Shown: positions 6,801 through 63,882 of the stretch, in pieces | Position numbering within the stretch: the stretch's first letter is position 1 | How the letters are laid out: each line of letters starts with the position of its first letter | NCBI RefSeq assembly: GCF_000003815.2 | Contig: NC_049988.1 | Span: 16,085,778-16,149,777, forward strand | Source of the DNA: Branchiostoma floridae | Lineage: Eukaryota > Chordata > Leptocardii > Amphioxiformes > Branchiostomatidae | Direction: 5' to 3' | Length of the DNA: 64,000 nt | The notes under the pieces: generated by a model | Seen by the model: only the letters and a program-made list of their open reading frames with translations | Told to the model about the DNA's origin: nothing | The model's database searches: none | Made by a program: the position numbers and the translations under genes

Positions 6801-9800
6801 GCAACCACAGATGCTGATGGCCCCAGTGGCTGCTGGGATACCTGGTTTCCAACAGCCTGGTCTGCTCCCATCACAGGTGAGACTTTGGCATCACAATTTG
6901 TGCCTCCTCCCCCTTAAACCTTTTTTTAATGGCTTACTTAAATGCTCAGAATCCATTCATACCTTCTCTCCAAGCTTAGATTCAGCTCTGATCAACCAGA
7001 CGTCCGATCAACCGCCTACTCGAAAATCATTAGAACCTCACAAACTACTCAGATTAGATTAGAATACTCGCCAAGCAGAGGTTTGCTACGGCTGTTTTGG
7101 ACATGTTTTTATGTTATATCATTGGGTTTTCTATTTTGTGCTGTTTTCCTTATGTCTTCCAGCATAAGAACGCATCAAAAACAGCCAAAACTGAACCCCT
7201 AGCATACAACATACTTTACAGAGAACTGCATGTAGTATATTTCGGCTTCCTGCTTTGCGTGTTTTGTATATACCCTGTATTCTCTTTTCTCCTGTATTCT
7301 TCTGTATGCGTCTGTAGGTGTCTGTTTGTGTGATATGTTGATTAGGTTCCCTTATAAATTACCTTGTCAGTGTATGAAATGAATAGATATATCACATAGG
7401 AAGTAACCAGGGAAGGCTACAAAGCCCCCACCCCCAGCTAGATATCACATGGAAAGTTTCTCTCTTTCTTCTTTTTTCTTTGACTGACAGAAATAGCAAA
7501 TTGGATTATTTTGCCCCTGAGGCCTTCAGAATACTCCAGCCAGGAAGACCGTAATTACTTTGTAATGATGTAATTAGTTGTTGAATTTTGATTAATGTCC
7601 CCATTCTTCCAAAGTGGGTCGTGTTCCATATGAAATAGGATATTAAGAAATTTACTATCGATGATGATGATGATGGATGTTAACAGTGTTTGAGAAAGAC
7701 TGACTGACGGTTCATTATAACCTTTTAAAGAAAGAAATAAGGATTTACATTTCCAACAGTGTCTTTACTGTTTCCCTTTTGTGGACCAAAAATCTATTTA
7801 CATGGGTCTCTATGATACCCGAAACTGTCTCCATGATAAGTGCTTTGTCACCACGGTAACTGCCATGTCTCCATGGTTACGTCTTTGTCTCCATGGTAAC
7901 TGCCATGTCTCCATGGTAACTGCCATGTCTCCATGGTAACTGCCATGACTCCAATGGTAACTGCCATGTCTTAAGGGTAATTGCCATGTCTCCATGGTAA
8001 CTGCCATGTCTCCATGGTAACTGCCATGACTCCATGGTAACTGCTATGTCTCTATGATAACATCCATGTCTCCATGGTAACTGCCATGTCTTCACGGTAA
8101 CTGCCATGTCTCCATGGTAGCTTCCATGTGTCCATGATAGCTGCCACATCTCTATGGTAACTGCCATGTCTCCATGGTAACTGCCATGTCTCCATGGTAA
8201 CTGCCATGTGTCTGTCCCCACCTCTGCAGCAGCCGGCTGGACTGCTATCCCAGAGTTCCACAGGGCACGCCATGCCCTCTACTGGCTGGGTTAGTGCACA
8301 ACTTGTAATCGTGCACGTTTTGCTGTGAGCGAAAAAACGCAGAAAAATTGATATGTGATCAACAATTTTATGCCCCTTGGCAATGGTTGACCCTCCCAAC
8401 AAAACTAATATCAGCACCTTTTACTAGGAACGGTTGGATGACTGGAAACGCAGCATTTTTTCCTATCCCTCACTGTGCTTGTTTGTGTGTGTTTTGCTCC
8501 ACTTTGAAGTTGTATGTGTGTCCACTTGCACTGAACCTTTGATATGTCCTCCTCTCTGCAAGCAGCAAGGATCGGTGTCGCCAAACACCCCCGGCTTGTC
8601 CCAAAGTTCTGCTGCCTCCACCAATGCTAACATGGCCTCTAACATGGCATGTAGTTGGGTTAGTCTCGGACTGTCTGTCTAACTTTTGTAACTAGTGGGC
8701 AGGGCTGCCTCCAGCTTTGAATTTCTTTCCGTCCCACTCATTGTTTTGGAGCCAATTGTTGATTTTCTGTCAGTGTAAAATGTATCATTTTTAGCTTATG
8801 GGAACACTCTTCTATTCTATCAATTTTATGTACTAAGTTCAGTGAAAATATGCATGAAATTCTGGAAATCAAACTGTGTTTCTTTTATGTTTCTTGATTT
8901 GTATTTAAGCATGAAATTCATACCTGTTTGTACAGTGCACATGTATGTCACTAAACAGTTGCCTGAGGTCTTCTGTTTGGGGTTAACAGGGCCTAAGTCA
9001 AGTCAATATTAGTACATGTATATGTCACAGTAGAGATTCAGGACAATCACCGATTGTCCTAAGACAGATCGCGATCTGAGTTGGTCCTGGGATAGACTGC
9101 GGTGATTCTACTAGAGACTAGTACAGATTGCAATCGGGATCTGTCCTAGGACAAACTCCGATCCAAACTCAAATGATTCTAAGATAAAGAAAAGAGCAAT
9201 ACTTCTTTGATAAACCATGATGTTGTTTAGTATCACTGCAAACCTACTATCACTTATTACCAACTACACTCAAGGCTACCAGACACTTCTACAATGTTGA
9301 CATATGGACATATATATAACGTAATTGTTATGACCTAATGTGTTCCTATGTATTTTCTCTAGATCCAGACAGTGAATGGTCAACAGATGTTGCTCATCCC
9401 TGTTGCTGGACCAAACGGCCAGCAGCAGCTGCTTACCATACCAGTGTCCATCCCTCAGTCGCCGGGCCAACAGGGGCAGGTTTGTTTGTTTGTTTGTTTA
9501 TATCTTTATGAAAGCTCAAATTCATGGCTTGGCTCTGACTCTTAGTTTTTGTAAGAATGATTTTGAACTGTAATTTTAAACAAAACAGATTCAATACTCA
9601 AATTTTAACACACAACACCAGCTTTTGTCAAGGAATGAATCCAATGCTTCTGTGTTATGTTGTGTTTTGTTTTGTTGTACTAAGGGCTTTAAAAGCTCTA
9701 CGTACTGATTTTCTACTTGGTACTCAACACCAAATTTATGGCAAAGGATAGAAGTTGTACACACACACAGTGCTACAGTGCCAGTGGACTAGCTCCCTGC

Positions 9801-12800
9801 TTTATTACAGTTACAGTACACAGTTGTGTGGCCCAAGGACTGAAGAAACAGAGATGACCTCATACAACCTATATTGTTAGAAAGGAAATTGATCTCGATC
9901 CAGTTTTAGCTCACTGAAGAGCTAGTCATCCATTGATTATGACAGAAAAAACAGGCACTATGTAGGCACTATTTGCAGATCCATTGTATCTGGGAAAGGC
10001 CACTAGCTCTTTTCGACAAGCACAATGAACAGTGGACCACGGCTTAACGTCCTGTCCTAAGGACTGCAACTCTTTCCGGTAGCGTGTATGTTGGGTGAGT
10101 GTGACACAGTCAGAATCAAACTCACGGCTTTAAGTTCCAAAGGCAGGGCCCCTAACCACTAGACTACACAGGCTATCAGGACTGTAATTTTTGATGTCTC
10201 TTCCTCCAGGTGGCCCAGATCATCGCCCTCCCCACAGCAGGTGGCCAGGTGCTTCCCACAGGTGGGCAGATGCTAACCCAGGCTGCTGTGAACGGAGGAG
10301 TCGTCGCTTCACCTGGCGCCCAGCAAGCTGCTCATTCAGGTAAAACTTGTTTTTATAGTACAGTCACACCTTTCTTAAGTAACTTTCTATAGTAGGGTGC
10401 AAAGTTCAGTGGTTTGATAAGTTACACTTCCAAGAGGCCATGAATTTGAATCTCAGCTGTGTTTGCTCGCTAAAGCGTAAAGCCAAATAGCTGCATTGTG
10501 ACCCTTTTATAAAAAAATTTTGTGTTGCACTTGAGTTGAAAATAGATCATGACTGAGTTGTTGCCATTTTTTTGTAGCTTTTAAAAGACACAGAATCAAA
10601 GAACACACTGTGATTCAGTCTTCCGCAGACTCCAATGAAGAACTCAAACCTAACAGAAGTAGTTCTAGATCTTAGCACGGGTATTTTACTTTTTAGTATT
10701 GGTCATTTTTGTATCATCTGTTAATATCACTGTACTCAGTATCATTCCATGCATCATGTACTTGCGATTAGCCTTCGGGAATATATTGCATATGAACGGT
10801 TATATTCTTAACTACATGATATCAACACTACAATAACAAAAGAAACTTTTACAGGTATTGCAATCCATGCCACAGCAGCCAATGAAATCGCATCCCCAAC
10901 CAAGTCAGCACCCAGCCCAACCACAGTAACCAATCAGATCATCAGAACGACGTCGTCTCGGATTACCGGCACCTCCGTCATGACCAATCAGATCGCAGGA
11001 ACCCAAGTTGTCACAAGCCCGAGCGGACAGATTCAGCTGATCGCTGGAAACACGGGATTGGTTAACCAGGCCACTGCGAACGCCACGCAGATTTTAAACC
11101 GTGTCCAGGCGGCGCCACCAGTCACTTCGCAGCTCGTAAACGGGACCCATGTTCTCACGAACGCTTCCCCCGCGAGACAGGTTCTAACGTCAGCGATTCC
11201 GCAGGGTGTGACCACGTCGGCCGCCATGGCGGCGCACCTGGCCAATCAGGTCGTGGCGACGCAAGCAGCGGCAACCAATCAGACCACGGCGACGCATCAT
11301 CATGTGGTGACCAATCAGGCGACAGGAGGTCAGGTGCTGACCAACGCGGCAGGACAGGTGTTAGGAACGGTGGTCGGAACGCAGATTTTAACACCTGGAG
11401 TGATCTCGCCAGGTGTCACCGTAGCTGCGTCAGGTGGAGATGAGGTCCGTGAAAACTTTTTCTTCCTTTTTGTATTTAAAAAAAAGAATATCATTAACAA
11501 AGATAAAGAAAAGAAAAGGTATAAAAGTTGTAGATTTAAGTGTAGGAATACGATTTTGAAGGTTAGACATCCAGGTAAACAATATTTAAAGGCTGTTTAA
11601 TCTCTACAGTTGGATAAAAATTGGATATGTTCTTAGCTGTCTTGTGCTGTATTTCTCATTAGTTGATTCCTTTTTTATTTTCTCCTTACAGCTTCATTCT
11701 CAAGCATCACAACAGTCCATCTCCCAGCTGGCAGCAGCAGGTAAGGAGATTTTCCTTTCCCTACAAATTAGTTTTCTCTCAGATATTCATCTTCATCACT
11801 GTTAATGATTTTGGTTGGTTTATGATCAGGGCAAGTCAAAAAGTTGTGATAGAATGTGGGAAATGATAACAGTATCTCAGACAATTGGTCATTGTAGACA
11901 ATGGGCCAAGCATTGGAAAAATAATCTAACACTAACTTAAGCCCTTACGCAGAGGTGGTCACTAGCACAGTTGTGAGTGTAGCCAGGTGGACCTTATGAA
12001 AGTCCAAGTCTTATGCAGAGGTGACTGCTAGCACAGTTTTGACAATGGCAAGGTTATCTTTATGATTGTACTGCAGAGGTGGTCACCAGTACAGGTTTGA
12101 CTGTATATCAATGGTCAGGTAGAGGTGATCATTTGTTCAGATTTGGCTGCAAGTATCACTAGTGACAAACTACAGAAAGTACAGAAAGGATGATGATGAT
12201 GATGTTGTATCTCCAGCAGATATCCTTGGCTCCACGGAGAGCACAGTGGATGGGATAAATCTTGAGGAGATTAAGGAGTTTGCCCGCCAGTTTAAGATCC
12301 GCAGACTCTCGCTGGGGCTGACACAGACCCAGGTGGGACAGGCACTGAGCGCTACTGAGGGCCCAGCTTATAGCCAGTCTGCTATATGCAGGTATGGAAG
12401 TCAACATGTATAATTCTATTTTTTCCTGGTAGAGAAAGCATATTGGTTTTGCTAGTGGTGTGTTCTTCTTCTTCTGTCATGAACCAGTCAGATCTTAGAA
12501 CTGCTGTAAACCAATCAGAGCTTGAATTACTGAGAACCAATCAGAGATTAGAACTGCCTGTGACATCAGCTGTACAGCAAATATGCACAATACTAAACGG
12601 AAAGCTGACACGTAGTAGTTTTGGTTGGTTTGTGTGAGATTCTAGATATTACAACCAAGTTATTTTTTTAGGTTAGAAAAGCTACACACCCCGAGAAGTT
12701 TATTAGTTGTTTATTTGTTTGTTTGTCAGATTTGACCCCAAGTTGTATTTAAGAAGCTAGACACCACTCAAGAAGTTGCTAAGATGTTTGTTTGTTTGTC

Positions 12801-14812
12801 AGATTTGAAAAGCTAGACATCACCCCCAAGATTTTGTTTGTTTGTTTGTTTGTTAGATTTGAAAAGCTAGACATCACCCCCAAGAGTGCCCAGAAGATCA
12901 AGCCTGTCCTGGAGCGCTGGATGGCTGAGGCCGAGGAGAGGTATAAGAACGGGGCCGCCAACCTGTCCGAGTTCATCGGGCAAGAACCTTCCAAGAAAAG
13001 GAAGAGAAGAACGTCATTCACACCACAGGTAAGGTCTTAGAATATTCGTGAAACTCTATGTCTATGGATGTGTTGTCATCTCGGTACGTCAGGCGTCCAT
13101 TCGGGTGATTTGAAGTGAATCACCAACTCCAGACAGAATGATTTGTACCTTCGTAGGAACCCAAGTACTAGTATTAGAGCCCCTAATTTTTTTGACAGTA
13201 GTGGGTGGTTCTTTAATGTGCCTGGTGCAAATTTCTAGCCAGCGTTCGTCCTTCCGTCCTCGGACAGAATTTTGCTGCTGGGGACGGACATAAATTTTGT
13301 GCATTCTATCCTTTATGATGGACAAAAATTGGCATGTTAAGATATCCAAACAGATGCCATTGAACCAAGCAGAGTCTACAAGCAAAGTTTGCCCCTCAAA
13401 ATGCCAGAAATAGCATTCAGAGGGTCTAGATTTTAAAATTTTCCAGGGGAACATGCTCCCAAATACCCCTAGGATCATTGCGCCTTTGGGTCGCGACAGG
13501 ATTTCCAAATTCAAAATCCAGGGACGGAAAAAAATCAGGCTGACTAGAACACTGGTGGGGTGTAAATCTCCGTTAACACGGAACCTCCACTTAACGCACT
13601 ATTCTATTCAAATTCTTGATACGAGATGGAGATTCACAAGGGCTCCATCTGAGTGAAGTAGTGAATCACAGAGACAGAAGGACTTACTTACCCTTATATA
13701 TACCGGGTCGTAACCTTTAGTACTGTTTTTCGAAAGGTGCGGTGGGTTCTTGTGTGCGTGGGGTGTGACTCTCTGTTAACACAGGACCTCCATTTAACAT
13801 CATGTCCTATTCAAATTCTTGCTGCTTCTGTTCCAGGCCTTGGAAGTGCTGAATGCCCACTTTGAGAAGAACACCCATCCGTCGGGAGCAGAGATGACCG
13901 CACTGGCCGAAAAGCTGAACTACGACAGAGAGGTGATCCGCGTATGGTTCTGCAACAAGCGACAGGCCCTGAAGAACACCATCAAGAAGCTCAAGACTCA
14001 CCACGAGGCTGTGAGCGCACATCACGAAGCCGTGGTAGGCAGGCAGCTGTTTCTGTTCATTATAAACTTCACCTAACCGACACTAAGGATAGTTGGGACT
14101 TACCCAAACTTTTGGCTGCCTTGTTAAAGCCTCTTTTCAAGGGGGGATAGTGCATTATGCAATTTGCAAGATTCTTGTAGTTCTCAATGCACAAATAATA
14201 AAATTAAGAAATGTCCGTAACAAATTGCTTTAGTTGTATTTGTGCCAATCAATTTAGCTGTTGAACTGGAGTTATTAGATTGTGAAAAAAAATTGAACCT
14301 ATTATAGTGTCAGACTATAACCCATACAGTATCACACTTCACTCAGTATCCGTTTGTGTGTAACACTGTTTTATTCTCCTGTATTGTTTTATGCTGAAAG
14401 GCAGATGCTGCTAACTGCTACCAGGTCTGTGTCGTTCTTTGAAAAAATATGGTAAAAAGTACTTGACTATAAGACATTAGAAATCAGGGTTGTCCAAATT
14501 CCGAACCTGTTTGTAAATTTGGAATTGTAATATTTTTTTTTTCCTTTTCAGGTAACCCAAATAGCTGGCCCAACTCATGTAACCCAAATCCCGCAACAGG
14601 TCAACCTGGGGTCACAACAGGTCAGTCTGGGGTCACAACAGGTCAGTCTGGGGTCACAGGTCAGCCTGGGTCCTCAGGTCAGCCTGGGGTCACAGGTCAG
14701 CCTGGCTCAACAGGTCATGAACTCTCAGGTCACCGCCCACGTGACCTCCCCCACCATCACCACTGACAACCTCACAGCTCAAGACTTGACGTCAGGAAGC
14801 CTCTCACCTTGA
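3777..14812 (+). CDS. POU6F: POU class 6 homeodomain transcription factor (12 exons in window; 5' exons missing)
   Basis: This is a DNA-binding nuclear transcription factor. In-frame splicing of 3777-3897, 6779-6876, 8230-8289, 8563-8658, 9363-9479, 10210-10339, 10855-11444, 11692-11740, 12220-12391, 12857-13028, 13837-14034 and 14552-14812 gives 687 residues and a stop; every junction phase agrees. The first exon begins DPMISGQQ, matching the QDPMIAGQ motif near the N-terminus of vertebrate POU6F2, so earlier exons probably lie to the left. A long Q/T/V-rich region follows. The POU-specific domain runs from INLEEIKEFARQFKIRRLSL to about PVLERW. The homeodomain starts at KKRKRRTSFTPQ and ends with recognition helix REVIRVWFCNKRQ. 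GLTQTQVGQAL and SQSAICRFEKLDITPKSAQK are diagnostic of class 6. The C-terminal tail of about 110 residues after the homeodomain is unusually long. Family assignment is firm; POU6F1 versus POU6F2 cannot be separated, and an invertebrate may have a single co-orthologue. Confidence 0.93.
3898..6778 (+). other. POU6F: POU6 intron, no gene seen
   Basis: This is AT-rich sequence with short CAATCAATCAATC tracts (about 3908-3930 and 4092-4110) and poorly conserved repeats such as the paired CAGACATCTGA segments near 4870-5000. No frame shows coding character, and no RNA gene was recognised. Confidence 0.6.
6779..6876 (+). CDS. POU6F: POU6 exon b
   Basis: TTCTAG acceptor and CAG|GTGAGA donor bound 98 nt. 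The exon completes the split glycine codon and continues ATVPIMQPQMLMAPVAAGIP, ending in phase 0. It is hydrophobic and glutamine-rich, like the transactivation region of POU6 proteins. Confidence 0.85.
7811..8213. repeat. Minisatellite, about 20 units of 20 bp (CCATGTCTCCATGGTAACTG)
   Basis: About 400 bp of head-to-tail 20-mers in the POU6 intron end directly at the acceptor of exon c. Units vary by single bases (for example CCATGACTCC and CCACATCTCT). The unit contains GTCTCCATGGTAAC, close to the RFX X-box consensus; the unit at 7847-7860 (GTCACCACGGTAAC) matches that consensus fully. Long minus-strand frames through it are simply translated repeat. Confidence 0.92.
8230..8289 (+). CDS. 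POU6F: POU6 exon c, cassette-like, 60 nt
   Basis: Acceptor CTGCAG|CAG (a NAGNAG, so use of the second AG would remove one glutamine) and donor TGG|GTTAGT bound the exon. It encodes QPAGLLSQSSTGHAMPSTGW in phase 0-0, so inclusion or skipping keeps the frame. It resembles exon d in GL(L)SQSS and in its Trp-GTTAGT end. Confidence 0.6.
8563..8658 (+). CDS. POU6F: POU6 exon d, cassette-like, 96 nt
   Basis: The NAGNAG acceptor (GCAAG|CAG|CAAGG) allows a 96- or 93-nt exon, and the donor is TGG|GTTAGT. It encodes a serine/asparagine-rich segment from QGSVSPNTPGLSQSSAAST to MACSW. Phase 0-0 makes it skippable without a frameshift. Confidence 0.6.
9363..9479 (+). CDS. POU6F: POU6 exon e
   Basis: CTCTAG acceptor and CAG|GTTTGT donor bound 117 nt in phase 0-0. 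It encodes IQTVNGQQMLLIPVAGPNGQ and then QLLTIPVSIPQSPGQQGQ, matching the LLIPISIAGQ-type glutamine-rich block of POU6 proteins. Confidence 0.88.
9740..9870 (+). repeat. SINE 3' body fragment
   Basis: AGTGGACTAGCTCCCTGCTT followed by GTGTGGCCCAAGGACTGAAG resembles the body of the SINE at 3330-3605 but lacks its tRNA head. It lies in the intron after exon e. Confidence 0.45.
10020..10185 (-). mobile_element. tRNA-derived SINE fragment, minus strand
   Basis: On the minus strand TAGTCTAGTGGTTAGGG reads as an A box and GTGAGTTTGATTC as a diverged B box, at tRNA-like spacing. It sits just upstream of POU6 exon f, inside an intron. It does not fold into a full tRNA that I can see. Confidence 0.5.
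10210..10339 (+). CDS. POU6F: POU6 exon f
   Basis: CTCCAG acceptor and TCAG|GTAAAA donor bound 130 nt, phase 0 in and 1 out. It encodes VAQIIALPTAGGQVLPTGGQ, then MLTQAAVNGGVVASPGAQQA. The glycine codon split at its end is completed by exon g. Confidence 0.88.
10855..11444 (+). CDS. POU6F: POU6 exon g, long T/N/Q-rich region
   Basis: TTACAG acceptor and GATGAG|GTCCGT donor (GTCCGT is a weak donor) bound 590 nt. The product is threonine-, asparagine-, glutamine- and alanine-rich with repeated TNQ/VNQ steps. LTNAAGQVLGTVVGTQIL corresponds to the LTNAQGQVIGT motif of vertebrate POU6 proteins. The exon is noticeably more GC-rich than the introns. Confidence 0.88.
11692..11740 (+). CDS. POU6F: POU6 exon h, 49 nt
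   Basis: CTTACAG acceptor and GCAG|GTAAGG donor are near consensus. It encodes LHSQASQQSISQLAAA and ends after the first base of a codon that exon i completes, giving D or AD depending on the acceptor used. Confidence 0.8.
12217..12391 (+). CDS. POU6F: POU6 exon i, first half of the POU-specific domain
   Basis: The acceptor is a NAGNAG (TCCAG|CAG|ATATCC): starting at 12217 gives AAADILGS and starting at 12220 gives AADILGS after exon h. The exon encodes DGINLEEIKEFARQFKIRRL, SLGLTQTQVGQALSATEGPA and YSQSAIC plus AG of the next arginine codon, with donor AG|GTATGG. This junction is shared with vertebrate POU6 genes. Confidence 0.95.
12660..12856 (+). repeat. Three diverging tandem copies of the exon j splice acceptor and exon start
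   Basis: Exon-start-like sequence follows a T-rich tract and AG at 12672 (TTAGAAAAGCTACACACC), 12730 (ATTTGACCCC, then AAGAAGCTAGACACCACTCA) and 12803 (ATTTGAAAAGCTAGACATCA, identical to exon j for its first 28 bases). The true exon begins at 12857. TTTG repeats separate the copies. Confidence 0.85.
12857..13028 (+). CDS. POU6F: POU6 exon j, end of the POU-specific domain, linker and start of the homeodomain
   Basis: The TTAG acceptor completes the split arginine codon and reads FEKLDITPKSAQKIKPVLER, then a linker ending GQEPSKKRKRRTSFTPQ, donor CAG|GTAAGG. The 5' end and acceptor of this exon are repeated upstream (see findings). Using the copy at 12801-12802 would add 18 residues in frame. 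Confidence 0.95.
13029..13836 (+). other. POU6F: POU6 intron, no gene seen
   Basis: It contains a partial internal duplication: GTGTAAATCTCCGTTAACACGGAACCTCCACTTAAC (about 13560-13595) resembles GTGTGACTCTCTGTTAACACAGGACCTCCATTTAAC (about 13764-13799), and each is followed by CCTATTCAAATTCTTG or similar. The second copy leads straight into the acceptor of exon k. No coding potential was seen. Confidence 0.55.
13837..14034 (+). CDS. POU6F: POU6 exon k, homeodomain helices 1-3
   Basis: TTCCAG acceptor and GCCGTG|GTAGGC donor bound 198 nt in phase 0-0. It encodes ALEVLNAHFEKNTHPSGAEM, then LAEKLNYDREVIRVWFCNKR with the DNA-contacting WFCN core, then a basic KNTIKKLKTHHEAV tail. Lysine in NKRQ replaces the more common arginine of NRRQ. 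Confidence 0.95.
14552..14812 (+). CDS. POU6F: POU6 terminal coding exon with QVSLGSQ repeats
   Basis: A long T tract and CAG precede GTAACCCAAATAGC. The 87-codon frame joins exon k in phase and ends at TGA 14810-14812. It encodes VTQIAGPTHVTQIPQQVNLG, six QV(N/S)LG repeats, then a serine/threonine tail ending LTSGSLSP. The repeat is also present in the DNA (CAGGTCAGTCTGGGGTCA). There is no ATG in this exon, so it is easy to miss in single-exon ORF calls. Confidence 0.82.
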   Translation, partial: VTQIAGPTHVTQIPQQVNLGSQQVSLGSQQVSLGSQVSLGPQVSLGSQVSLAQQVMNSQVTAHVTSPTITTDNLTAQDLTSGSLSP

Positions 14813-48537: not shown

Positions 48538-51500
48538 GTAACTCAGGTGGTTTGTTTTTTGGATGCATAGAAAAAGGCAATACGGTAGAAGCCAGTTAAT
48601 TGCACACTTCTGTTAATTGCACAAAATCCCCAAATCCCGTGGTGGCATGGTCCAGCTTGATAACTTTGCATTGTTGCACCATTAGGATAATTGCGCGAAA
48701 AGCACAGGCAAATGGGGTGTGTAATTAAGTGGCTTCCACTGTATCATTCCAAGATATGGCAAAAAGTAGTTACTCAAGCACCAAATGGTTGTCTGAAATG
48801 TCTGACTGTTTCAAAATCATATCCAGTTGCTTGAGTAACTGCCTTTTAGCATATCTTATTACCTGGATGTCTAACCTTCATCAACATATTTACCAAGATT
48901 TGCAGAAAAATGACAACGACTGTTACTGCCATAAAAAAAAGCATCATCTTGATTGTAATGCATTTGACCCGGCAGGATCAGAGGTTTTTAGAAGTATTTC
49001 AGCCATACTAATTTGGTTTATTTCCTCTTTGATCTAAAAAAAATGGTGCTGGACTCACCAAGTGATCTGAATATCAATATGAAAACATAGTCTGACTTGC
49101 CTTGGTTATGAATGATTTAGTCTGATTCAAGTTGTTCTTCCAGCCCTCCAGTTTTACCTTAGGTGCTTACTTCATTTTTACTTTGAAATGTCCGAAAGCC
49201 ATGTAAATTAATTGGTGCAGTCTTACCAGCAATTTTTCAAATAAGTTTTGCCCCAGTTGATGATATAAATAGTCATTGTGTGAACTTGTTTCTTCAGCAA
49301 ATTTTCAAATAAGTTTTGCCCCAGTTGATGGTATACATACAGGAATTGTGCGAACTTATTTCTCCATTTTGCAGGACACAGAAACAGATATTCCAGCCAC
49401 CCCCTCTACAAAACCAACTGGTGCATCCAAGCTATCCTACCATTGGTCAGAGGTGCCAACCAATGAGGAGGCTCCTTGCAACAGGAGCAAGCATGCGGCC
49501 TGTGTTCATGATGGAAGCCTGTTCCTGTATGGAGGACGGGATGTCAGGGCCACGAGGAAGGATCTATGGCAGTGTGATCTAAGTAAGCTCTATTGATCAT
49601 CGAATGTATGTAACGCTGGTTCACCTTTATTCGGGGGTAACCTATATAGTGTTCAGCACCAATGACAGGTCTACTTGCTTGTGTGAGTGTGAGTGGAAAG
49701 TGTTCAGCACCAAGGATATGTATACTTGCTTGTGTAAGTGGAAAGTGTTATGCACAAGGGGCAAATCTACTTGCTTGTCTGAGTGTGAAGTGTTCAGCAC
49801 CAAGGACAGGTATGCTTACTTGTGAGTGGAAAGTGTTCAGTACCAAGGACAGGTCTACTTGCTTGTGAGTGTGTGAGTGGAAAGTGTTCAGCACCAAGGA
49901 CAGGTCTACTTGCTTGCTTGTGTGAGTGGAAAGTGTTAAGTACCAAGGACAGGTCTACTTGCTGGTGAGTGGAAAGTGTTCAGTACCAAGGAAAGGTCTA
50001 CTTGCTTGCGTTGGTGAAAAGTTTTCAGCACCAAGGACAGGTCTACTTGTGTGAGTGTGAAGTGTTTAGCACCAAGAACAGGTCTACTTGTGTGAGTGTG
50101 AAGTGTTCAGCACCAAGGACAGGTCTACTTGCTTATGAGTGGAAAGTGTTCACCACCAAGGAAGTTCATACCTGATTTTTTTGTTATCTGTAGGAACAAA
50201 CCAGTGGTCCAGCGTCCATACACAGGGCGACGCCCCTTCAATGCTTCAGGAACATTCCATGGTGGCGTACAAGGGTCGGCTGTACCTGTTTGGCGGGTCC
50301 CTGGGCTGCAGCGATGACAGGGAGAAACCGCTTTGGATCTACGACATCGAGACTGGAGTCTGGAGAAACCACCTACCGGAGTCTGAAGTCAAGGTGGGTT
50401 AATATAAACATTGTGGATGTGTAAACATTTGTGAGTAAAGAAAATGAAGCTTTGTTTTCCACAAAAATGATTGGTAATAATTTGCATGATATTTTGAAGG
50501 AAAGTTGAACTTATAGCTGTTAGTTAGTTAGTAAGTTAGCTAATCGTTCACACAGTATCTCAGTAATTAGTCCAATTTCTGGTTTGTCACTTTGAACTTT
50601 CAAGAATAATAGAAATGGCTGACATGGCAACACAAACTTATGCAACAAGCTACATTTATAGGCTTAGGCACCTTTCAGTTGAAAAATTAACATTTTGCAC
50701 TTTTTTCAAAACCGTGTTTTGTTGCCTCCGAAAATAGTTTCATCAGGTTGGTAGAATATAGGATAAGGGAGAAATTCTTTGTACACAACCAGTGGGTACT
50801 TAGTAGCTTACGTTTCGATGTCTCTCAGGAATGGCTTATCCGTGTTTTGTTGCATTGCAATATTGTTCACTTTCATGATAAACATTTCTTTGCTGTATCA
50901 GTGAAGTTTTCTCCTATAACTATGTTCATATAAAGTTTTCCTTTCCTACCATTGTAGATCCCCATTGGTCGACGGAGCCACACAGCTGTAATATCCCACA
51001 ATTCTATGCACATCTATGGCGGCTACATTGACCTGAAGGGGTCATCGGGGGAACTCTGGACTTTTGTGTTTGGTAAGAAAACATATCAACAACTGTACCA
51101 CACAGCAATATTGTCACACAAACTTCATTTTAGAGACATGACAAGTCCTGATGCTGTGCCCTTGGGAAAGCCACTTTATACCAACCTTTTCACAGTTTTT
51201 GTGACCAGTGTAATGGCCAAGTTGGTAAGATTGTTCGCCTTGCATTTTGTAGATTGTGAGTTTGATACCTGGGTGAGTCATACCAAAGACTTTAAAAGTT
51301 CCATACTTCTTTTTCTGCTTGGCAGTGACAGCATTTGGGGAAGAGCATGGTAGTTGAACATACATACAACTTAAACCTGTGGACTTGCCCTCTGCTGCAG
51401 TGATTGCACAAAGTTGTATGTCCAAGGGCTATTGAAATAGAGATGGATGCCACCCTATGCGCCATCTGGTGTGGGAAGGACTTTACCTGAAACACCATCT

Positions 51501-56395: not shown

Positions 56396-58651
56396 ATTTT
56401 TTATTTATTGGTTTGGCTGCACCGAACACACAGCCAGGGCTGCCCAACTAGCCTATGGCTATTACAAAGGGCTAGCCCTGCTGACAAACACATAAACAAT
56501 ACAAATTAAAAAAAAAAAAAAAAGAACATTTGTATGTACATGGTGTAGGATAACTTACATATCATCTAAAATGGAGTATATAACATCATATCATCGACAA
56601 CAATATTTGCAATGAGAGGTCAGGGTCTGTATATACACGTGTATGACTAATTTACCATGCGTAAGGGTTGCCTAGACATTCCCACAGTTTTCTTTTGAAA
56701 GAAGCAGTGGAGGTGGCTGTGCGAGTAGCAGTAGGGAGAGTGTTCCAGAGTGCTGTTGCTCTGTAGATGAATGTTTTCTGTCCTCTGGTGGACTTAGTGA
56801 GTTCAGATGTCAGGTGGTCGCTGTTCCTGAGGGAGTAACGTGACTCAGTAGCAGACGCACGGGTTCTGGGTATCAGGGTTTGAAGGTGTGGAGGGCAGTG
56901 ACCGTTGAGGAGCTTGTACAGGGTGACAGCGGTGTGGAATTGTCGTCGGAACTGCAGTGATGGAAGGGATAGCTGGGTGTACAGAGATTGGTATGACGGG
57001 TACGGGAGTCCATGTTGTCCGCTGATCAGTCTGGCAGTTTGGTATTGAATTGATTCCAGTTTTGTTTCGTCGCGCTTGGTGAGTCCCGCCCAGACGACGT
57101 CAGCATACTCCAGGCCAGGTCTGGTGATGGTTTTGTACAGTCTGAGCAGGATATCCTTTGGTACCTTCTTTCTTAGTGCACACAGTAGGCCAGCAGATCT
57201 TCTTGACTTAGTGGAGGTTGTTTCAATGTGTTTAGACCAGGAAAGTCTGTTTGTTAGGGTGACACCAAGATGCTTGTAGCTAGTAACAACTTGTAGTGTA
57301 CAACCGCCTAGTATGACTGGAGCAGGGGGTCTAGGGAGAGTGCGGGTTGTGATGAACATCACCTTGCATTTGTCCTCATTGGCTTCTAGCTTCCAGTTTG
57401 TTAGCCAGTTGGATACGGACCGTAGGTCCGTGTTGAGTGAGTTGACTACATGTTGGACGGATCGGTTGCTGGTTGAGAGTGATGTGTCATCGGCGAACAG
57501 GTTTGCGTCAGACTGTGTGCAGCAGGTGGGTAGATCGTTGATGTAGAGGATGAAGAGGGTGGGACCTAGTACGGAACCTTGTGGGACACCCGCGAGAGGA
57601 GATTTCCATTCGGATGTTCCGCCCTGGATGACTACTCTTTGACGTCTGTTCGATAAGTAGCTGTGGAACCAGTTCAGCATGGATCCACGTATTCCATGTG
57701 CTCGGATTTTGGTCAAGAGCCCTTGGTGCCACACTTTATCGAATGCTTTACGCAGGTCCAGAAACACGCAACCAACAACTTCCCCTCTGTCCATAGCTCG
57801 GGTCCATTCCTCTACAAGCCGGGCTAGTTGGAGTGTGGTGTTGTCGTGGGCTCTGAATCCGCTCTGGTGGTGGGACAATACTGGATTGATTTGTTTAATT
57901 AGATGTTTGTTGACTAGTGACTCTAGCACTTTCGGAACGATGTTGAGCAGGGAAATCGGCCTGTAGTTGTTGGTGAGATGACGACTGCCGGATTTGTGGA
58001 TGGGGGTTACATTGGCCTCTTTCCAACCAGAAGGAACTTGACCAAGGCTGAGTGATGTGTTGAATAGCCGGGTGAGGGGTGCACATATGGCGTCAGCTAC
58101 CTGACGGAGAAGGTTTGGAGTGATGTTGTCTGGACCGCAGGACTTGCCCACCTTTAGCGTTTTCAGTTGCTGTCGCACTTCGTCTACAGTCAGTTGGAGA
58201 TTGCTTAGTGTTGTTTCAGGGATTGTCGTTGGTTGGAAGGTGGGAGGGGAGTCGTTCCTGTCATTTAGGTCAGTCTGTTGTATGAAAAAGTTGTTGAGGG
58301 CATTTGCCTTGTCTTCGGGTCTTTCAATAATATCTGTCCCATCTTTGAGTGCTGGGACGCCGGTTGACGCCTTTCCTAAAGCAGATTTGGCAAAGGAGAA
58401 GAAGCGCCTTGTGTTTCCAGCTTCTACATCTTCCGTCACTTCTTGGATGTATGCCGCCTCTGCGTTTCTGGTGAGGGTGGTGACCAGGTTTCGTTGTTTC
58501 CTGTAGGCAGACCAGGCTTCAGGAGTGTTTTTGCTTTTGGCTCTGGAGTGGAGCCGGTGCTTTCGTCGGATGGCCGCTTTGATCTCTTTGTTTTGATGGA
58601 TCCATGGTTTGGCTGTTCTGTTGACAGAGAGGCTCTACAAGAAGGCAAACC
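56396..58651 (-). mobile_element. Non-LTR retrotransposon (LINE), 5'-truncated, open RT, 17-bp target-site duplication
   Basis: The minus-strand frame is open from about 58632 to the stop at 56652, about 660 codons. It starts inside the pre-RT region (PWIHQNKEIKAAIRRKHRLH) and contains NYRPISLLNIVPKVLESLV, VFLDLRKAFDKVWHQGLL, AGVPQGSVLGPTLFILYIND and the catalytic LFADDTSLST. It ends with an ALWNTLPT...SFKRKLWE block, as in CR1/Jockey-type elements. There is no endonuclease, so the copy is 5'-truncated. The 3' end on the minus strand is an AATAAATAAAAAAT tail at 56396-56411. TTGATGCCCAATTTCTT (56379-56395) and TTGACGCCCAATTTCTT (58652-58668) are the target duplication with one mismatch. The intact frame and clear duplication indicate a recent insertion. 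Confidence 0.92.
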
Positions 58652-59995: not shown

Positions 59996-61692
59996 TCACT
60001 GCTTCTTGTTGTGCCGTTGCCGTGGCGACACGCATCTCGTCTGCAGCTCCGAGACGGCCAGCATCATCATCCTGTTCAGCATCTGGTGAATCGCATTGAT
60101 CTGGCTGCTCGGAAGTCCCGAAAACTCCCCCTGCGTGGCCCTCTCGTTTAGCGCCGAGAGGGACTCAAAGAAATTCATTTCCCTGCTGGACAACTCCTGG
60201 AGCGTCACGTCAAATGGCTGGGTTCCTTCTACTGCTGTCGTTGCGTCTTCCGTTGTTGCCATGACGCTGGTTGCCATGGCATCGGCTTGCCTGGCGACGT
60301 CGTCTTCATCCATGGAAACGAGTCCCCGTAGCATGTCGACCACGGGAGAACCGACTTCGGCGGCCGTGCTAAACATGTCCGTGGATTCATCGAGAGCGTC
60401 CAGTGCACGTTGCGCTGCCGACATCGAGTTCACGTTTTCCAGGATTGAGTCCATATCGAGTCTGTCTGTGCTTACGGCGCTTGCTCCGCTACCCGAAAAG
60501 ATGGGGAAATACGGCAATCCGCCTCGAACAGGACTGCTTTCAACGGAAGAGGGCACAGAGGTGTCATCAGCAAGGGCAGTTACACTGTCAAAATCCTCTG
60601 GCATTCCCTGGTTCCTTACCTCTGTGCCTTGCATCACAATAGATGGTGGGTCGTTCTCCTCTGATGGGTTTAAAGAGGTAAAACTGTAACTCCTCTCCTC
60701 TGTGAGTTGTGCTGCTGTTGATGGTTGGTTGACTTCATTGGTAATGTCTACTACGGATGGCTGATCGCTTGCTTCGCTTGTCTCACTCGTCAGGTCTACG
60801 ACTGATTGTTGGTCACCCTCTTCTGTGGTTTCTGGTAGAGATGACAGTTGGGCGCTATCCGCTGTGGGTTCAGGTTGAGCTGACCTATGGTCGCTCTTTT
60901 CTGTGGGTTCTGACGGCGTTGACCCATGGTCGCTCTCTTTTGAAGATTCGGCTTGTGTCGATGAATGGCTCTTTTCCTTTGAAGGTTCGGTTTGACTTGA
61001 GCCATGGTCCATTTCCTTTGTGAGTTCGGGTTGAATTGAGCCATGGTCCGTTTCCTGCATGGGTTCTAGCTGGACCGACCCATGGGTGCTTTCTCCTGTG
61101 GGTTTTAGAGTGGTTGACTCAGGATCTGCCTCAGTCGTAGCTTTATGTACAGTTGACTCATGGTCCACATCTGTTGGTTCTGGTACAATTGACTCATGGT
61201 CTATGTCTGTGGGTTCCAGTGGAGTTGAACCATGGTCTTCTTCCTCTGTAGTTTTTGGTTGATTTGACCAATTGTTCTCTGTGATTTCTGGTTGTGTTAA
61301 ACCAAGGTCCTCTGTGGCAGGTTCTATTACAGCTGACCCATCGTCCGTCTCTTCTATGGGTTCTTGCTCTGCCAACCTTTGGTCCTTATCCTCTGTAGAT
61401 TCTGCCTGGGATGACCCATGGTCTTTCTCTGTGGGTTCTTCCTGTGTTGGTGGCACACAGTCATTCTCCTCAACAGGTTCTGGCTCAGTTGACTCATTGT
61501 TATTTTTGGTGGGTTCTGCTGGCATTGCCATCTGGTCTCTTTCCTCCTTGGGTTCTGGTAGAGCAGACAACTGGTCATTTTCCTCCATAGGTTCTGTTTC
61601 AGCTGACACTTGGTCTTTCTCCGGAGCAGATTTCAAAGTGGCTGTCTCCTCTGTCTTGTCATCCGAGTCTTCTGTTGTCAGAGACTCGGTGG
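59996..61692 (-). CDS. RIF1: RIF1-like last exon with 13-residue repeats
   Basis: ATTGCAG acceptor; 565 codons plus the completion of an alanine codon. It opens TESLTTEDSDDKTEETATLK. Residues from about position 35 to 310 are tandem 13-mers of the type EPTEKSDHGSTQP. The C-terminal part is predicted helical and free of repeats. Confidence 0.82.
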
Positions 61693-63882
61693 CTGCAATG
61701 AAGTAGGCAAAGAAATGTTAGCAGCTGTCTTTGGGAGACTGGTTTTACACTTCTTGTGCGTGCAAATCTCACTATTTCAAAGCTCAAGCATTTCTAGATC
61801 TATCATTCTCAACTGTCTGATGTTCAAAAACAGAGGACAAGTTGAAAAGGCAGATAAGAGACATGACTAAGGACCAATTTAATAATTCCCATACACGAGT
61901 ACAGTAATGGTGTCTACTGGTATTTCAGTGAATGACATTGACATGAAAATGAAGATGTCATATCCTTCTTTGATCCTTCTCACCTTCTGTCTTATTTCCC
62001 GAGGTCTGTCTGAGTTTCTTGGTCTCCAGTTGGTTGTGGAACTTCTCTAGGGCCTTCTTCAAGGTCGCGACCTTGGGTGTCCTGATAGGCAGACTATTTA
62101 CCTGTATCAGGTGGGAAGTACACAGGACTTAAGGAAAGATGTTAACTAATGGGAGGGATAGAGAAAAACACAGCAAGCCCCACAGGCTACAAAGTCATGT
62201 TATCGCACTAACAGAAGAAATCAAGTATTAGCATCAATAGTGACTTTGCAGTGCAGTCTAGATCCAGAGAAAAAACATATACTCCCACACACACACACAC
62301 ACACGCACACACATACATGCATGAATGCAAACTCACACACACACACATTCATATTCCCCACATACCACCCACCACACACACACACATTAACTTAACCACA
62401 AACTAACTCAAATATACATTAATTACTTGAGCATACAGAAGGTACACACCTCTAGTGGGGTCAGGGCGCTGATGTCACCGATGGTGTGGATGTTCCTGGC
62501 ATGAACCAGCTGATTCAGTCCTCGAGCCCTGAGAATAAGGAATGGTTTGTATGACATAAGATCATAATATCTAGTTTTTACAGTGATAAATGCATGGATT
62601 TCAGTTGTGAAAAGATGCTACGTTGTTGTGCAGCACATGCAGAATTCTAGGGTAAAGCCTGCCAATGACTTAGTAACATCAAAAGATATTCTAAGGGATG
62701 TGCAAAGGAAACATCAGTAATCCAAAGGTATCTACCCTTAAGATATTTAAGTGTTCAAGACAATCTTCGAGAAGTTTATATAACGGTATTTTTTTTTAAT
62801 GGAATTATGAGAGTTGACGTTACCAATCTGAAAAGTTGTTTCTAGTCTACACATGGTAACATGACTCAAAATTTCAAAGAAATCAAAGTAAATGTCTTTT
62901 GAAAATAAAGAACAAATTAGACAGGGTGGCACATACCCACATCATTGNNNNNNNNNNNNNNNNNNNNNNNNNNNNNNNNNNNNNNNNNNNNNNNNNNNNN
63001 NNNNNNNNNNNNNNNNNNNNNNNNNNNNNNNNNNNNNNNNNNNNNNNNNNNNNNNNNNNNNNNNNNNNNNNNNNNNNNNNNNNNNNNNNNNNNNNNNNNN
63101 NNNNNNNNNNNNNNNNNNNNNNNNNNNNNNNNNNNNNNNNNNNNNNNNNNNNNNNNNNNNNNNNNNNNNNNNNNNNNNNNNNNNNNNNNNNNNNNNNNNN
63201 NNNNNNNNNNNNNNNNNNNNNNNNNNNNNNNNNNNNNNNNNNNNNNNNNNNNNNNNNNNNNNNNNNNNNNNNNNNNNNNNNNNNNNNNNNNNNNNNNNNN
63301 NNNNNNNNNNNNNNNNNNNNNNNNNNNNNNNNNNNNNNNNNNNNNNNNNNNNNNNNNNNNNNNNNNNNNNNNNNNNNNNNNNNNNNNNNNNNNNNNNNNN
63401 NNNNGGTGATGCAGGGAGGCCATCTTTTGCCACTCGTTTCTGTGATGTTGAGAAAGAGATATTCTTTAAGACCTGCATTTGGAAAATGGACCTTGCTCTT
63501 AACGTAAACGTTAAGAACAACAAACAAACAAACAAACTAACTAGTAGTAGTATCCAGAATTTCATCATACAGCTGTTGGTATCCCTGACACAGGGGTAGG
63601 CAGCAGTTGGCTAGTCTTCACACCCCGCTTCCATACGGATCTGTCCAGAGGGCTCACCCTAGTTAGACAGCACATTTTGATGTCTCTCCTAATACATTCC
63701 ATCCAGGAACTATCTAAAACTATCTTGTTCATACAAGCCAAGAAGCACACGGGAAAACATAGGAGTGCATTTTTTTAGAGCAAACTTACAGCTCGGCCTG
63801 ATGGAGTTGCAAATACAGAGTCAGCTTCCTCTTGTGTCTCCTCTGCCCCAGTCTTTTTCTTCTTGGATGGGGTTGTGATAAA
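59996..63882 (-). CDS. RIF1: RIF1-like telomere/replication-timing protein, C-terminal exons
   Basis: Minus-strand exons 63882-63790, 63439-63405 (into the gap), about 62947-62941 (out of the gap), 62528-62450, 62101-61984 and 61692-59996 join in phase where both sides are visible. The block ARGLNQLVHARNIHTIGDIS, ALTPLEVNSLPIRTPKVATL, KKALEKFH matches the conserved C-terminal segment of metazoan RIF1, a nuclear protein that recruits PP1 to control replication timing and acts in double-strand-break repair. This is from memory of the family; the N-terminal HEAT repeats lie beyond the window. The last exon is unusual: about 21 tandem 13-residue acidic repeats precede a conserved-looking end with SSREMNFFESLSALNERATQ and INAIHQMLNRMMMLAVSELQ. 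The stop TGA is at 59998-59996. An alternative is an unrelated protein sharing the short block. Confidence 0.66.
61984..62101 (-). CDS. RIF1: RIF1-like exon with LPIRTPKV motif
   Basis: GATACAG acceptor and CAGAAG|GTGAGA donor bound 118 nt. It encodes VNSLPIRTPKVATLKKALEK, then FHNQLETKKLRQTSGNKTE. Phase is 0 in and 1 out, matching both neighbours. Confidence 0.84.
62285..62390. repeat. CA microsatellite
   Basis: Interrupted (CA)n with CACACGCACACACATACATG and further CACACA runs, in a RIF1-like intron. Confidence 0.9.
62450..62528 (-). CDS. RIF1: RIF1-like exon with ARGLNQLVHARNIHTIGD
   Basis: TTCTCAG acceptor and CTAGAG|GTGTGT donor bound 79 nt. Its first base completes a codon from the exon in the gap. 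It encodes ARGLNQLVHARNIHTIGDIS, then ALTPLE. Confidence 0.82.
62941..63439 (-). CDS. RIF1: RIF1-like exon(s) mostly hidden by the N gap
   Basis: Right of the gap, CATCACAG|AAACGAGTGG opens KRVAKDGLPAS (63439-63405). Left of the gap, CAATGAT|GTGGGT (62947-62941) leaves two bases that complete as ATG with the next exon. Whether this is one exon or two cannot be told. Confidence 0.5.
62948..63404. other. Assembly gap (457 N)
   Basis: A run of N between ATCATTG and GGTGATGC. It interrupts the RIF1-like gene. Frames drawn through the gap are meaningless. Confidence 1.
63790..63882 (-). CDS. RIF1: RIF1-like exon, Lys/Glu-rich
   Basis: TTTACAG acceptor and CGAGCT|GTAAGT donor bound 93 nt in phase 0-0. 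It encodes FITTPSKKKKTGAEETQEEA, then DSVFATPSGRA. A basic KKKK cluster next to TP sites suggests a nuclear, phosphorylated linker. Confidence 0.7.

Follow-up and report, generated by a model that had tools for sequence, protein, structure and literature searches.

The 64,000-nt stretch of Branchiostoma floridae DNA analyzed here (the window) harbors a plus-strand POU6 gene, whose POU-specific domain (POUS) is split between two exons. Exon i (12217–12391; Pfam Pou, E=1.8e-17 over profile positions 2–49 when the whole open frame 12129–12410 was scanned) encodes the first half and ends in ...SAIC plus two bases of an Arg codon (ATGCAG|gtatgg, with the donor gtatgg at 12392). Exon j (12857–13028; Pfam Pou, E=4.3e-10 for the whole open frame 12783–13037) encodes the second half, the linker and the start of the homeodomain, and is followed by the donor gtaagg at 13029. 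The predicted boundaries of the intervening intron i/j, which were set by continuity of the protein, place it in phase 2 within the Arg codon of SAICR|FEKLDITPK. It would span 12392–12856, i.e. 465 nt with the 3′-most acceptor or 411 nt with an acceptor at 12803. A homeodomain exon lies at 13837–14034 (borders set by eye; Pfam Homeodomain, E=1.3e-13 in the open frame 13798–14073), and the presumed last coding exon, assigned tentatively, at 14552–14812, likewise on the plus strand. When the POU domain was joined from three exons, human POU6F1 (3d1n) was its best PDB match among the best 60 of 70 distinct sequences (250 bits, E=6.1e-74), followed within the same set by Pit-1 at 132 bits. Without any insertion, the joined domain aligned to 3d1n over 151 residues with zero gaps, and domain similarity assigns the gene to class VI of the POU family.

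Repeats are found in several parts of this gene. A 20-nt unit (TGTCTCCATGGTAACTGCCA) occurs 19 times at 7826–8209, probably within a POU6 intron, while the 5′ part of intron i/j has a 26-nt unit, including AACCAATCAGAG, repeated about three times (12482–12557). The presumed last exon carries a coding minisatellite of 18–21-nt units (14594–14717) that translates as QQVSLGS repeats. Elsewhere in the window, a kelch-repeat gene contains a 68-nt tandem duplication (49234–49262 and 49302–49330, 29 nt exact) in intronic sequence just upstream of an exon acceptor at about 49375; by eye it repeats the polypyrimidine region, which makes it a further duplication near an acceptor in the window. A 45-nt minisatellite of about 11 copies (49648–50162) fills most of an intron of the same gene, judging from exon borders set by eye. 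On the minus strand, two long open frames, at 3–1670 and 56655–58634, encode a reverse transcriptase domain (Pfam RVT_1) and probably belong to retrotransposons. A further minus-strand open frame of 573 residues (59999–61717) was Glu-rich and repetitive over the 120 residues examined and had no Pfam match at an E-value threshold of 0.01.

The last 200 bases of intron i/j consist of tandem copies of the intron's own 3′ end and the start of exon j, and these repeats cross the intron–exon boundary. Exon-like starts, each following an AG and preceded by a T-rich tract, lie at 12672, 12730, 12803 and 12857 on the plus strand, in agreement with the first-pass annotation, which had described four tandem copies of acceptor plus exon start, the last two with a spacing of 54 nt. 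Copy 1 (12659–12696) comprises a T tract with TAG and an exon-like body from 12672. Copy 2 (12714–12784) has a TTTG tract with a CAG reaching 12729; the acceptor at 12730 exists as annotated, but the copy is interrupted there by a 17-nt insertion (12730–12746), and its body begins at 12747. Copy 3 (12785–12831), the youngest-looking duplicate, contains a TTTG tract, CAG at 12800–12802 and a body (12803–12831) equal to the real exon start, and copy 4 (12833–12856), presumably the regular acceptor, a TTTG tract followed by TAG. Between copies 3 and 4, which are spaced 54 nt apart, 31 bases are identical (12801–12831, made up of the AG and the first 29 bases of the exon), slightly more than the 28 bases originally given for this identity, within a 47-nt stretch of 98% identity; the two copies differ in tract length and in the base at –3. 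Relative to this pair, copies 1 and 2 have decayed, resulting in a graded divergence with an insertion in one copy.

As the older copies are degenerate, their likeness to the start of exon j (a 30-nt query) was compared with that of random window segments of equal length and of Markov shuffles. The copy 1 region (12650–12705) scored 24 and the body of copy 2 (12745–12802) scored 27, values reached by 0 of 19,688 and 0 of 19,679 random segments, respectively. For 12650–12800 as a whole, the score was 27, compared to a maximum of 22 in 5,000 random segments, and the top score among 2,000 Markov shuffles of this region was 27, the same as observed. Relative to random window segments, a chance likeness of the bodies at 12672 and 12747 can thus be rejected. 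No significance was obtained for the segment 12720–12745 alone (746 of 19,669 random segments reached its score), nor for the tail of copy 2 past about 12767. We make no claim that copies 1 and 2 extend deeper into the exon, since the 16-column match of copy 2 and the corresponding piece of copy 1 were reached in 19% and 22% of random segments, respectively. For the youngest pair, a test of this kind is unnecessary. A genome search found the array locus once in the assembly; the second match (C17, L002) consisted of a TTTG microsatellite plus a short flanking stretch, with no POU sequence noticed nearby, and was discarded as a distant duplicate.

The consequences of using each acceptor were predicted by joining the respective pieces in silico (the joined pieces stop one base short of the true exon end at 13028). 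Splicing from 12391 to 12857 yields the conserved POU domain. Splicing to 12803 would render the 54 nt at 12803–12856 exonic and leave the frame open with no stop (...SAICRFEKLDITPKILFVCLFVRFEKLDITPKSAQ...), with an in-frame insertion of 18 residues (RFEKLDITPKILFVCLFV) in POUS, while from either 12672 or 12730 the reading frame would run into a stop. The initial reading of these frames, namely that 12803 adds 18 residues in frame and that the two older copies introduce stops, was thereby borne out.

To place the affected intron among lancelet POU genes, the genome was searched with the Pfam Pou profile, returning seven matches at five loci. An intron common to other POU genes was not supported, as among these five loci solely the one in the window was interrupted at the Arg codon of SAICR|FEKLDITPK: a Pit-1-like locus has its intron about six residues later (by eye), and the three remaining loci are open through the codon. 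The search did not recover Pou3l, which is reported in PMC9953854. The same study describes a single lancelet Pou6, expressed in the neural plate, cerebral vesicle and endoderm of B. lanceolatum.

Tandem repeats of this kind have been described as a lancelet peculiarity under the name of mirages, in Adh3, troponin C, globins and PGBD5 (PMC3087553, PMC3902484). Reported units measure 10–72 bp in Adh3, 157 bp in the B. floridae globin gene BflGb9 and 150–160 bp in BflGb6 (PMC3087553), and PMC3902484, which covers troponin C too, gives 60 and 108 bp for PGBD5, both multiples of three. Repeat numbers vary, by haplotype in BflGb6 (six and three units; PMC3087553) and among assemblies in PGBD5, where the repeats were confirmed by Sanger and Illumina sequencing (PMC3902484). 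Mirages are reported to leave regular splicing undisturbed (PMC3087553, PMC3902484); RT-PCR data for Adh3 and globins suggested it to be unaffected (PMC3087553), and a PGBD5 gene model that included the repeats as a 57-residue insertion was rejected by the authors (PMC3902484).

The published globin mirages were also looked for in this assembly. Repeats were sought within 60 bases of nine genome matches (vs. 15 published globin genes) and were detected at or near the match in two of the nine loci. In one of them (L036), a 157-bp spaced repeat crosses exon 2 at its 3′ end; in the other (L040, 1021–1520), acceptor and exon start are repeated several times in 158-bp units that reach the 5′ end. 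By length and place, these repeats match the mirages published for BflGb9 and BflGb6, respectively, which supports the assignment of the genome to B. floridae. Six of the nine loci were devoid of repeats both near the match and elsewhere in the locus, and the globin locus L035 displayed 19 pairs of local repeats at a distance from the exon that was matched. In the BflGb6-like locus, read-on from the upstream copies meets stops, meaning that minor use of upstream acceptors could have been missed there. For the genomic background, local exact repeats (24 nt or longer, 25–200 nt apart) were counted in a 190-kb sample (3,622 N) taken from one place on each of 19 large contigs. Such repeats covered about 1.1% of the sample (nine arrays) and, by the same measure, 1.5% of the window; at ~1.1% coverage, randomly placed repeats would touch roughly one in 100 boundaries.

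The POU6 array shares with lancelet mirages the boundary-spanning tandem repeats, the repeated splice signals, the graded identity of copies and the species. Its 54-nt unit falls inside the reported range of 10–160 bp (PMC3087553), and its layout on the acceptor side is that of the BflGb6-like locus. Unlike the latter, with its 158-bp units and stops, POU6 has a 54-nt unit that is in frame, open and inside a DNA-binding domain. An in-frame unit length is shared with PGBD5 and hence not new (PMC3902484); POU6 also differs in the near-identity of its two youngest acceptors. In cases of intron change through tandem duplication of splice sites in Drosophila, extra splice signals likewise stem from local duplication (PMC2891723). 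In contrast to the Drosophila cases and to the model of PMC3087553, POU6 exhibits competing acceptors alone, with no new intron seen.

Taken together, we regard the POU6 array as a lancelet mirage, with a probability of roughly 0.77: a minisatellite-like tandem duplication of the acceptor of the POUS intron, with 12857 as the regular acceptor and 12803 as a secondary site at most. Repeated local duplication would have pushed older acceptors upstream, where they would have decayed and now lead to stops, and the newest duplication would have produced the present pair of near-identical acceptors, separated by 54 nt. Of these, the 3′-most would serve as the regular one, giving the conserved POU6 domain, while any use of 12803 would add 18 residues with no frameshift. 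A regulated function need not be assumed on this reading. Two points speak against it. First, the regular acceptor is a presumed one, and 12803 ends in CAG rather than TAG and would be the first site met by scanning. Second, a vertebrate gene has alternative acceptors in the same domain, apparently at an identical junction, and under the mirage interpretation this would be coincidence.

Acceptor strength was compared by tract composition. The tract of 12803 is shorter and has a pyrimidine fraction of 0.56, vs. 0.72 for 12857. The longest pyrimidine run is three at both sites, as it is at the 12217 acceptor, while most other acceptors compared had longer runs (values for the controls 10855, 11692, 13837 and 14552 are approximate, being compared one base off). 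Conversely, the base at –3 gives CAG at 12803 and TAG at 12857, and 12803 is the first to be encountered in scanning. Neither site had a match to the strict branch point yTnAy; weak candidates include CTAAG 21 nt upstream of 12803 and ATCAC 35 nt upstream of 12857, among others. By these measures neither acceptor is clearly stronger, which makes some use of 12803 plausible.

Such use could amount to noise, with both acceptors active and a constant minor fraction of transcripts carrying the 18 additional residues, devoid of a function of their own. This is compatible with a mirage origin, and we give it somewhat less than an even chance: the acceptors are near-identical and only 54 nt apart, and splicing to 12803 would cause neither a frameshift nor a stop. 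The RT-PCR results on other mirage genes, which suggested regular splicing (PMC3087553), argue against it, albeit not decisively given the stops at the BflGb6-like locus. Less probable by far is that the extra 54-nt copy reflects an assembly error or an allele limited to some haplotypes. The variation of mirage repeat number between haplotypes (BflGb6) and assemblies (PGBD5) would allow for it, as would the single occurrence of the locus in the assembly. Yet copies 1 and 2 have diverged, copies 3 and 4 are unequal in tract length and in their –3 base, and the PGBD5 repeats were confirmed by two sequencing technologies (PMC3902484).

The earlier proposal for this array had tentatively been an independently evolved, functional counterpart of the isoforms of vertebrate POU6F2 (RPF-1). 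In POU6F2, an insertion within POUS may alter DNA binding; it apparently contains no copy of the exon start and would sit between ICR and FEKL. If this junction and the usual helix borders of POUS hold, the vertebrate insert would interrupt the recognition helix behind the Arg that contacts DNA. The lancelet duplication, unlike the vertebrate insert, repeats RFEKLDITPK, and hence recognition helix 3 could stay whole in the +18 form. The precedent as such was confirmed: exon 11 of human POU6F2 is served by two acceptors, SA1 and SA2, whose distance of 108 bp accounts for a 36-residue insertion in the POUS of isoform 1, described as unlike any other POU protein (PMC10436210). The residue numbers given there (R494 vs. 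G601 in isoform 1 and G565 in isoform 2) are in line with 36 additional residues in between, with the exact point not fixed by them. Both isoforms are reported from mouse brain, pituitary and gonads, isoform 1 being the commoner, and the study also includes a GnRH1 expression assay (PMC10436210). In its docking models, isoform 1 binds DNA with the insert facing away; these models do not show the vertebrate insert to abolish binding. Lancelet POU6 resembles POU6F2 in gene class, in having two candidate acceptors for one POU-domain exon and in the in-frame POUS insertion that these would permit, and differs in its size (54 nt and 18 residues vs. 108 nt and 36 residues).

A functional tandem acceptor in the strict sense would imply that lancelet Pou6 is made both in a +18 form and in one lacking the insertion, in a regulated ratio, as an independent counterpart of POU6F2 isoforms 1 and 2. 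The open, in-frame unit, the short pyrimidine runs at both sites, which would suit alternative use, and the vertebrate precedent are in line with this, but we judge it unlikely. A unit length in frame arises in about one third of cases by chance, the PGBD5 units being multiples of three as well (PMC3902484), and a used unit that shifts the frame would be selected against, so that the frame proves little. The array resembles repeat turnover rather than a conserved element, and published mirages are reported to be splicing-neutral (PMC3087553, PMC3902484). The main text on lancelet Pou6 expression (PMC9953854) contains neither 'splic' nor 'isoform', and the listings given by searches of an open-access library mentioned neither a mirage nor an alternative acceptor for lancelet Pou6. 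The first-pass suggestion of an evolved functional counterpart is unsupported, as is a regulated function of the +18 form, and the duplication fits a lancelet mirage instead, a phenomenon that the first-pass annotation had left unmentioned. Very unlikely, finally, is a version in which mirage-derived acceptors give lancelet Pou6 a regulated +18 isoform, convergent with POU6F2: helix 3 would be whole and the insert (...ILFVCLFV...) would lengthen the turn before helix 4, implying that, unlike with the vertebrate insertion, base contacts would be kept while POUS packing or partners would be changed. If true, a mirage would have been recruited for protein diversity.

As a mirage, the POU6 array would add one more case, at a site of interest, to a phenomenon already known from lancelets. 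Mirages have been described before, but little use has been made of this oddity of lancelet genomes. Here, one would lie in a conserved neural transcription factor, with its newest unit in frame and open, in the very domain where POU6F2 has alternative acceptors. Its splicing would bear on whether mirage duplications are inert or a source of new protein isoforms.
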